In this document: positions 26,624 to 31,131 of the stretch, piece after piece
How the letters are laid out: each line of letters begins with the position of its first letter
Position numbering within the stretch: position 1 is the first letter of the stretch
Origin: Chloroflexota bacterium
GTDB taxonomy: Bacteria; Chloroflexota; Anaerolineae; B4-G1
Reading direction: 5' to 3'
Assembly (NCBI GenBank): GCA_012514315.1
Contig: JAAZAN010000205.1
Location: forward strand, 1-64,000
DNA length: 64,000 nucleotides
Made by a program: the position numbers and the translations under genes
The notes under the pieces: model-generated
The model's input: the letters and a program-made list of their open reading frames with translations, nothing else
Database searches by the model: none
What the model was told of the DNA's origin: nothing

Positions 26624-27631
26624 TCACCCAGATGACAGACTCACAACCGCATTGAGAGCGGCGCGCAGGCTCCCAGGATCAGCCAGGTTCGCACCCACGC
26701 GATCGAACGCGGTACCGTGCGCGGTCGTACCACCTGCGACCGGCAGCCCCATGTACAGCGTGGCGCTGACGTCTCGCGGCTGCAGCTTGCGCGCGATGTT
26801 GGCCTGATCATGGTACATACACACAACTCCGTCGAACTCGCCGGTCAGCGCCCGCACGAAGATCGCGTCCGCTGGGATCGGCCCCTCTACGAGTATCCCT
26901 TGTGCGCGTGCCATCTCGATCGCCGGCCCGATCTCGTCGATCTCCTCACGTCCAAACAGCCCACCCTCTCCGCCGTGGACGTTCAACGCCGCAACACCGA
27001 GACGCGGGTCAGCCCGTTTGGCCCGGACCAGCGCAGAGTGGAGCTGCTCAACGCGCCGTCTCACCCGATTCTTCGTGATCAGGCCAGGAATATCCGCGAA
27101 GGCCACATGGTCTGTCACATTGATTGTCCAGAGTGGTCCCATCACTCCGACGAGAAACGCTTCCCGACTCCCGGTGACATCCCCCAGGAAGCAGAGCTCA
27201 TCCGGGTAGTCGTAACCAGCCAGATGAAAGGCTTCCTTGTTCATCGGCGCCGTGACAACGCCCGCTGCACGGCCCGATGTCGCGAGATCGAACGCCGCAC
27301 GGAGGCATAGCGCGGCGACCTGACCGTTGGCCGGATCCACACGCCCCAGCCGCACCGCCCCAGTGTCAAGACCATCCGGCTCGAATACTTCGATGAACGC
27401 CAGCGACGGGCGGCGCTCACCCGGCCGCTCCACCGCGCCGAACTCCAGGGGTACTCCTATTCCGTCCGCAACACCGGCCAGAATCTGCCGATCACCGACG
27501 ACGAAAGGCTGAGAGGAGTCGAAGATGGTCGGATCGGAGAGCAGTTTGACGATCAGTTCCGGTCCAATGCCTCCAGGGTCGCCCATCGCAAGTGCGATAA
27601 GGGGCCCTCTACGCGCCGAGGTTCCAGGCAT
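26624..27631 (-). CDS. PdxA-family 4-hydroxythreonine-4-phosphate dehydrogenase-like protein
   Basis: IALAMGDPGGIGPELIVKLL; VTAPMNKEAFHLAGYDYPD; CMYHDQ; AHGTAFDRVG. Confidence 0.88.
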   Translation of the reverse strand: MPGTSARRGPLIALAMGDPGGIGPELIVKLLSDPTIFDSSQPFVVGDRQILAGVADGIGVPLEFGAVERPGERRPSLAFIEVFEPDGLDTGAVRLGRVDPANGQVAALCLRAAFDLATSGRAAGVVTAPMNKEAFHLAGYDYPDELCFLGDVTGSREAFLVGVMGPLWTINVTDHVAFADIPGLITKNRVRRRVEQLHSALVRAKRADPRLGVAALNVHGGEGGLFGREEIDEIGPAIEMARAQGILVEGPIPADAIFVRALTGEFDGVVCMYHDQANIARKLQPRDVSATLYMGLPVAGGTTAHGTAFDRVGANLADPGSLRAALNAVVSLSSG

Positions 27632-30298: not shown

Positions 30299-30339
30299 AG
30301 CCGCGCTCCTCGTGAAGTGAGATGAACGTCAGGTGAAGC

Positions 30340-30369
30340 GATGCGGCGCACCGAGCGATGCGCCGCATC
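30340..30369 (-). promoter_or_regulatory. perfect 11-bp stem-loop between leader ORF and cytochrome gene
   Basis: + strand gatgcggcgca (30340-30350), 8-nt loop, tgcgccgcatc (30359-30369); no T-run follows on the transcribed strand. Confidence 0.8.
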
Positions 30370-30376
30370 CTTTCTT

Positions 30377-30411
30377 GGTCCGGCTAACCCACCAGGAGGT
30401 GGAGCCGGACC
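30377..30411 (-). promoter_or_regulatory. stem-loop overlapping the leader ORF stop codon
   Basis: ggtccggct (30377-30385)/agccggacc (30403-30411) plus ccacc (30389-30393)/ggtgg (30398-30402), aac bulge, agga loop. Confidence 0.8.
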
Positions 30412-30434
30412 GGCTTGCCTAAGTTACTATCCAT
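30384..30434 (-). CDS. 16-aa putative leader peptide MDSNLGKPVRLHLLVG
   Basis: ATG with SD AAGGAGGAGGTG (30452-30441) 6 nt upstream; lies between a consensus promoter and the cytochrome gene; TAG inside the hairpin 3' arm. Confidence 0.55.
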   Translation of the reverse strand: MDSNLGKPVRLHLLVG

Positions 30435-30466
30435 AAGCACCACCTCCTCCTTGTGAAGATGGCCTG

Positions 30467-30495
30467 ATTATGGATCATATCTACCCAGTTGTCAA
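30467..30495 (-). promoter_or_regulatory. consensus sigma70-like promoter for the leader/cytochrome operon
   Basis: Minus strand TTGACA (30495-30490), 17-nt spacer, CATAAT (30472-30467). Confidence 0.7.
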
Positions 30496-30702: not shown

Positions 30703-30730
30703 TTGATCCCACTCGATTCTCACGTATAAT
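30703..30730 (+). promoter_or_regulatory. sigma70-like promoter for the Rieske gene
   Basis: TTGATC (30703-30708), 16-nt spacer, TATAAT (30725-30730). Confidence 0.6.
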
Positions 30731-30789: not shown

Positions 30790-31131
30790 ATGGGAGACTT
30801 TGTCAAAGTCGCGAGGACTTCGGAGATTCCACCGGGAGCACGGAAGTCGGTCTGGGTCGAGGGCATCCGGGTGCTGGTTCTCAACATCGGAGGCACGTAC
30901 TACGCCGTAGATGATAGCTGCCCGCACCGCGAGTGCTCGATGGAGCACGCCAAACTGAAGGGCACGACCATCATCTGCCCATGCCACCTGGCGCAGTTCG
31001 ACTTGGAGACAGGCGAGGTCTTGGCCGAACCGGTTGAGTTCCCGCCCACCGGGCCGCTGCCGGTTCACCAAGCGAAGACAGAAGGGCTCGATATTCTGGT
31101 TGCATTGACCACCGATTTCGACTCAATCTGA
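30790..31131 (+). CDS. Rieske [2Fe-2S] ferredoxin-like protein
   Basis: CPHRECSMEHAKLKGTTIICPCHLAQFDLETGEVL. Confidence 0.92.
   Translation: MGDFVKVARTSEIPPGARKSVWVEGIRVLVLNIGGTYYAVDDSCPHRECSMEHAKLKGTTIICPCHLAQFDLETGEVLAEPVEFPPTGPLPVHQAKTEGLDILVALTTDFDSI

Follow-up and report, generated by a model that had tools for sequence, protein, structure and literature searches.

The window analysed here, a 64,000-nt stretch of genomic DNA with a GC content of 61%, carries on its minus strand a compact element that lies upstream of a gene for a multiheme cytochrome c (Cytochrome_C7, PF14522; 29174-30298, minus strand). The element has a sigma-70 promoter (30467-30495), in which TTGACA (30495-30490) and CATAAT (30472-30467) are separated by a 17-nt spacer and match the consensus at 11 of 12 positions. 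It is followed by a 5' box, GCCATCTTC (30455-30463; GCYATCYT in the class consensus), and by a very strong Shine-Dalgarno (SD) sequence, AAGGAGGAGGTGG (30440-30452), which the class retains as a near-invariant AGGAGGTGRTG. A short ORF of 16 codons plus stop, MDSNLGKPVRLHLLVG (30384-30434), extends from an ATG at 30434-30432 to a TAG at 30386-30384. Embedded in this ORF is the segment CCACCTCCT (30394-30402), a perfect complement of the stretch AGGAGGTGG of the SD region (30448-30440) and hereafter referred to as the anti-SD. Hairpin H1 (30377-30411) consists of a 9-bp outer helix, GGTCCGGCT/AGCCGGACC, and a 5-bp inner helix, CCACC/GGTGG; the stop codon of the ORF overlaps the start of its 3' arm. 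The last part is hairpin H2 (30340-30369), with 11 bp of perfect pairing and 13 bp as folded, which is poor in U residues. Apart from the 5' box, all of these parts on the minus strand had been noted in a first-pass annotation of the window, and each was confirmed in place, including the perfect 9-nt match between SD and anti-SD, the mutual exclusion of this pairing and H1, and the 11-bp perfect H2 stem with no U-tract behind it. Two elements of the picture are additional to that annotation: a second segment able to pair with the SD, namely the 5' box, which pairs with 30447-30439 in a hairpin (SL1), and the occurrence of homologues beside other genes. On the opposite strand, a divergent promoter-like site (TTGATC-16-TATAAT, 30703-30730) precedes a Rieske ferredoxin-like gene at 30790.

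Folding of the window copy gave a minimum energy of -83.5 kcal/mol (z = -6.2 relative to dinucleotide shuffles, none of 200 being as good). When the SD:anti-SD helix was forced, the energy was -74.6 kcal/mol, as compared to -84.8 kcal/mol for the free fold containing H1, and the two structures cannot coexist. In simulations of the growing transcript, a chain ending at 30393 has a probability of 0.998 of pairing SD with anti-SD; stepwise extension shows this helix to be gone by 30378, once most of the 3' arm of H1 has been made.

The pattern GGAGGTGG-N25-55-CCACCTCC occurs a single time in the 4.29 Mb genome. Used as an exact query on 149 genomes, this pattern was too strict and unspecific, and among the matches listed only the window copy was element-like. 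The same search exposed palindromes of the type GGAGGTGG...CCACCTCC, approximately 50 nt long, of which there are 27 in genome G061 (e.g., L048) and 29 in genome G124 (e.g., L049); these dispersed repeats do not seem to be related to the element.

Homologues were found by other means. A blastn search with the leader DNA within the order to which the window belongs yielded two, both from the family of the window but from other genera. The first sits between a tRNA-Met gene and a glycosyltransferase-like gene, the second near a contig end, and both retain the SD, the 16-codon ORF, H1 and H2. Extending the search to the class added about twenty more. A covariance model (R1) built from 20 sequences and applied to the class with a threshold of E ≤ 0.01 matched 243 of 397 genomes, with one match per genome and a single exception with two. 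The second match in the latter genome (L209 in G389) is a false positive on reading of the sequence despite its E-value of 8.7e-5, and so is a palindrome in genome G688 (L181, E = 1.7e-5); R1 E-values are thus rough and weak matches need reading. The window copy is matched at 30333-30473 (minus strand), as the sole match in its genome, with E = 1.2e-23, a value obtained by construction since this copy belonged to the seed alignment. R1 also reaches outside the class, matching 61 of 399 genomes of the phylum, while a second model, R2, built mainly from non-class sequences, matches 74 of the 399, many of them in families that R1 missed; several loci were recovered by both models. In locus L231, no element was seen at the position examined by script. 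Copies are rare in the window's own order (blastn found them in 3 of 49 genomes, and R1 gave 3 convincing cases in 41), which is odd for an essential RNA. The phylum carrying the element is probably Chloroflexota, given that Chloroflexi metagenome-assembled genomes account for three of five named cytochrome relatives. As far as comparison of sequences can tell, the window contains one copy of a small RNA gene that is conserved across a bacterial phylum and mostly present once per genome.

This distribution bears on the possibility that a strong SD and GC-rich hairpins merely happened to pair. Such an origin might be entertained for an isolated locus, since SD and anti-SD are short and the window is 61% GC, but homologues in dozens of families share the layout and their pairs covary. 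Chance is thereby refuted and deserves practically no credence, in agreement with the first-pass remark that the combination was hard to explain in this way.

The same annotation had described the element as an attenuator-like leader of the multiheme cytochrome operon, and this part was not supported. Of 149 related genomes, 45 encode relatives of the cytochrome. For 13 relatives (12 from related genomes, with 49-56% identity, and one from Hoeflea, with 44%) the upstream region was inspected, and none has a comparable leader; homologues of the element lie beside unrelated genes. The cytochrome-leader hypothesis was therefore rejected as a general explanation. The conservation at orthologous cytochrome loci that had been proposed as a test was not found in the upstream regions inspected, whereas the ORF, the SD complement and the hairpins are kept at other loci. 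Homologues from 35 families, 106 loci in all, were surveyed for the nearest following long ORF within 300 nt, which runs on the opposite strand in 48 cases and on the same strand in 46, counts that depend on mechanical ORF calls, some of which may be spurious. At least one copy with an opposite-strand next gene is found in 20 of the 35 families. With the following gene in either orientation about equally often, the element is not generally a leader.

Some neighbours recur, under names assigned from reading the sequences and not from a family search. A homoserine-dehydrogenase-like gene in the same orientation follows at approximately 10-190 nt in 14 loci of family f37 (L096-L119, L149), where the element could have been co-opted as a leader. 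An AIR-synthase-like neighbour is found in families f15, f17, f30, f36 and f47, and in f20, f22, f28 and f32 the neighbour is an opposite-strand HNH-type gene. In seven families an opposite-strand tRNA cluster lies nearby, with tRNAs for His, Gln, Phe, Gly, Ala and Leu in most; the loci concerned are L134, L135, L138, L139, L146, L147, L156, L162 and L165, and in several of the families an HNH-type gene lies in between. The side of the tRNA cluster may be the ancestral location of the element.

Control in cis of a downstream operon, by attenuation or a translational switch and at least as a local co-option in the window, has to be weighed against this background. Leader-peptide attenuators of the trp, his and erm type have a short ORF that overlaps alternative hairpins and is followed by a terminator. 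The element does have a short, presumably translated ORF overlapping an alternative hairpin; it differs from these attenuators in that its codons include no run for one regulatory amino acid, no antiterminator was seen, and no regulated operon is conserved downstream. H2 forms without involvement of SL1 or H1 in the structure predictions inspected, with no competing pairing noticed. In the window, the ATG of the cytochrome gene is only 41 nt past H2, and no other minus-strand promoter-like site was found between positions 27500 and 31500. As H2 is also U-poor here, the element may additionally serve as the 5' UTR of the cytochrome gene in this genome, and the f37 arrangement mentioned above also speaks for cis control. 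Against cis control stand the varying downstream genes, on the opposite strand in about half of the loci, and the cytochrome orthologues that lack the element; we regard it as improbable, even as a local co-option.

The 106 loci share a common anatomy. A -35 and a -10 box spaced by 16-18 nt are present upstream in 87 of them, as compared to 0.8 expected from shuffled sequences; the promoter of the three copies in the window's family is closer to the 5' box than the tested stretch reached. The 5' box conforms to GCYATCYT in the class and resembles GCCGTCCAGGC in much of the rest. The SD reads AGGAGGTGRTGC, a near-perfect complement of the 16S rRNA 3' tail, which is GGCTGGATCACCTCC in five of nine related genomes searched. 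In 105 of 106 homologues the ORF is 14-22 codons long, and other frames mostly close early; the rule used to pick start codons favoured ORFs of 12-26 codons and slightly biases this count. The sole exception (L146 in G077, a single-contig genome of 77% completeness) has a truncated ORF of nine codons, possibly due to a one-base indel in the assembly. In 87 of 99 loci, the start codon and the anti-SD core are separated by a multiple of three nucleotides, exceptions being mostly families that have the anti-SD in another frame within an ORF of similar size. Altogether, the maintenance of frame and length argues for translation of the short ORF and bears out the earlier view of a real reading frame behind a strong SD, now found conserved in dozens of families. 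In most families a U-rich tail follows H2, giving it the appearance of a plain terminator, and the window's family has the poorest tail. Family-wide, then, the sequence provides for a promoter and a terminator-like hairpin of the element's own, outside any longer mRNA, as in dual-function sRNAs; the window copy, with its U-poor H2, may depart from this.

The peptide follows a different pattern. Depending on the family, the anti-SD is read as ASP, HHL (f1, f5) or ITS (f12), and it lies in another frame in f1, f5, f12 and f81. Sequences resembling KPVRLHLLVG, whose conservation had been proposed as a test of the locus, occur in the window's own family and in one other but not more widely, whereas the anti-SD nucleotides are kept over a far greater range. 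By this measure, anti-SD nucleotides are conserved more than the peptide. These data are relevant to the idea that the element is a small-protein gene, with the 14-22 residue peptide as the product and the SD, anti-SD and H1 acting only to limit its synthesis through autoregulated translation. Frame and length conservation would fit such a role, as would the recurrence of N-terminal MDSS or MNDSKR and of a (S/T/G)(A/T/P)VASP core. However, residues are not conserved where the anti-SD changes frame (the four families above), and serine codons at positions 2-9 of the ORF are AGT in 164 of 243 cases across the 106 loci, unlike later codons, which suggests a constraint at the RNA level. We consider a peptide-only role unlikely.

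The proposal that SD:anti-SD pairing and H1 form alternative states received support from compensatory changes in dozens of families. The ORF contains a copy of the 16S 3' tail whose complementarity to the SD of the same element extends to as many as 14 bp, and RNAalifold returned the SD:anti-SD helix as the consensus structure of two plain MAFFT alignments, one of the class set and one mainly of non-class sequences. Among 69 aligned sequences, 92.8% of the cells in this helix are paired, and one of its pairs occurs as AU in 36 sequences, GC in 21 and GU in 11 and is broken in none; since this alignment was fitted to SD:anti-SD and H2, the counts lean towards both, H1 and SL1 being outside the model. 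All eight consensus pairs of H1 show changes on both sides in an alignment that was not fitted to H1. In SL1, 98.8% of the cells are paired in the 69 sequences, with one-sided changes only. The strongest evidence for the putative switch comes from family-specific extensions beyond the SD core, where sequences differ between families and still match on both sides: GCGAC:GTCGC in f12 (14 bp in all), GCTA:TAGC in f47 (13 bp), and GCCCAT:ATGGGC and GCCTGT:ATAGGC in f65. Two loci with GGGGGTGATG in place of GGAGGTGATG (L227 and L234) were passed over by the script, and their extension pairing is visible by eye. The SD:anti-SD pair score is 9.9 for an element's own partners, 9.1 for partners swapped between families and 5.4 for shuffled ones; the difference between own and swapped partners is small because the SD core is invariant. 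A further candidate pairing, between the 5' box and the start of the ORF (GCUAUCC:GGAUAGU), fails by eye in several families and was dropped.

Simulations across the families reproduced the behaviour of the window copy. The probability of SD:anti-SD pairing in the nascent chain exceeds 0.5 in all 35 families, and once H2 is included only five (f9, f15, f17, f71 and f81) still have it as the main predicted state. The largest nascent pairing of the SD with the ORF is 0.82, as compared to an average of 0.42 with shuffled ORFs, a gap slightly overstated by the coarser steps in which the latter were scanned. The final fold predicted for the RNA mostly leaves the SD in a helix, often the one with the 5' box; a ribosome would therefore have two competitors for it.

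The structure also prompts comparison with described RNAs. In Rfam 15, no family, SAM-III/SMK, Chloroflexi-1 and Yfr1 included, matched the element at the gathering threshold; matches at relaxed thresholds were to unrelated families, weak and far below gathering scores, and were discarded. Scanned at the gathering threshold, the homologue loci gave tRNAs only. SAM-III (the SMK box) and other SD/anti-SD switches use an internal anti-SD to sequester the SD in one of two exclusive folds, and ligand binding to switches of this type controls the downstream gene. The element shares with them the blocked SD and the two exclusive folds; it differs in having the anti-SD inside the very short ORF that it blocks, in lacking a conserved downstream gene and in having no Rfam match. 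The Chloroflexi-1 motif (RF01698), a candidate structured RNA reported from Chloroflexus aggregans (PMC2864571), is absent from the Rfam matches of the tested loci even at relaxed thresholds. Dual-function sRNAs that encode small proteins, such as VcdRP (PMC8672173) and SR1 (PMC8501984), are likewise discrete RNA genes with a short ORF; here the ORF is shorter, the distribution is phylum-wide, and the coding sequence contains an antagonist of its own SD. Yfr1, a cyanobacterial sRNA of 54-69 nt in which two hairpins flank an unpaired ACUCCUCACAC, is similarly encoded by a short gene present throughout a phylum and has an ultraconserved motif that resembles an anti-SD (PMC2190773). The element is longer than Yfr1, has an ORF and a complementary SD of its own, and carries the motif inside H1, partly in the stem, and not unpaired between two hairpins. 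The nearest ideas are thus Yfr1 and the dual-function sRNAs and, structurally, the SD/anti-SD translational switches. Nothing equivalent was found in the open-access literature searched, a scope that leaves most subscription journals outside, and the element seems to represent an RNA family not described before, mostly single-copy and spread over a large phylum that has been little studied.

Parallels with Yfr1 suggest a route by which the RNA could act in trans, with CACCUC in H1 pairing to the SD regions of its mRNA targets and the SD and ORF of the element itself masking or unmasking the anti-SD according to ribosome supply. The better conservation of the anti-SD nucleotides relative to the peptide would be expected of such an sRNA, as would the mostly single copy, the separate promoter and the terminator-like hairpin; moreover, several families have CACCU in an internal loop of H1 as folded. 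Still, the motif is partly inside the H1 stem, and a plain antisense RNA needs no ORF, yet one is kept in 105 of 106 loci. Trans-pairing overlaps with the explanation we prefer, to which it adds a specific output; stated in this specific form, it seems to us rather unlikely.

The explanation that we favour, with some reservation, is a standalone, translated RNA gene built around an SD/anti-SD/H1 switch. Its SD would have two alternative internal partners, the 5' box (in SL1) and an anti-SD within the ORF that resembles the 16S tail. Folding simulations suggest that the anti-SD, once transcribed, captures the SD, and that completion of H1 then withdraws the anti-SD, which would free the SD for the 5' box or for a ribosome. 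Loading of a 30S subunit on the SD, or translation up to the stop codon in H1, might decide which fold prevails, and the RNA would then behave as a translation-gated switch. That gating by ribosomes is the actual function of the element can be put forward only tentatively. The output is most likely the RNA itself, by way of an exposed anti-SD or of ribosome engagement, an RNA-level output being favoured because the peptide changes between families and the anti-SD nucleotides do not. A still more speculative extension is that the RNA senses initiating ribosomes, 30S loading during a short window of transcription choosing between SD:anti-SD and H1. This idea draws on the presence, in one RNA, of both a site that the 16S tail could bind almost perfectly and a copy of that tail.

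As no Rfam model exists, routine annotation would miss the element; R1 and R2 could seed one. The element carries, within its coding sequence, a copy of the 16S tail able to block the ribosome-binding site in front of it, with covariation extending past the SD core; whether ribosome loading sets the fold of an RNA can thus be tested directly on it. It is also a candidate for a global regulator, and the open-access literature searched describes no such RNA from these bacteria. If it does sense initiating ribosomes, translation-initiation capacity would be reported or buffered throughout the phylum, via a trans-acting anti-SD or the peptide.
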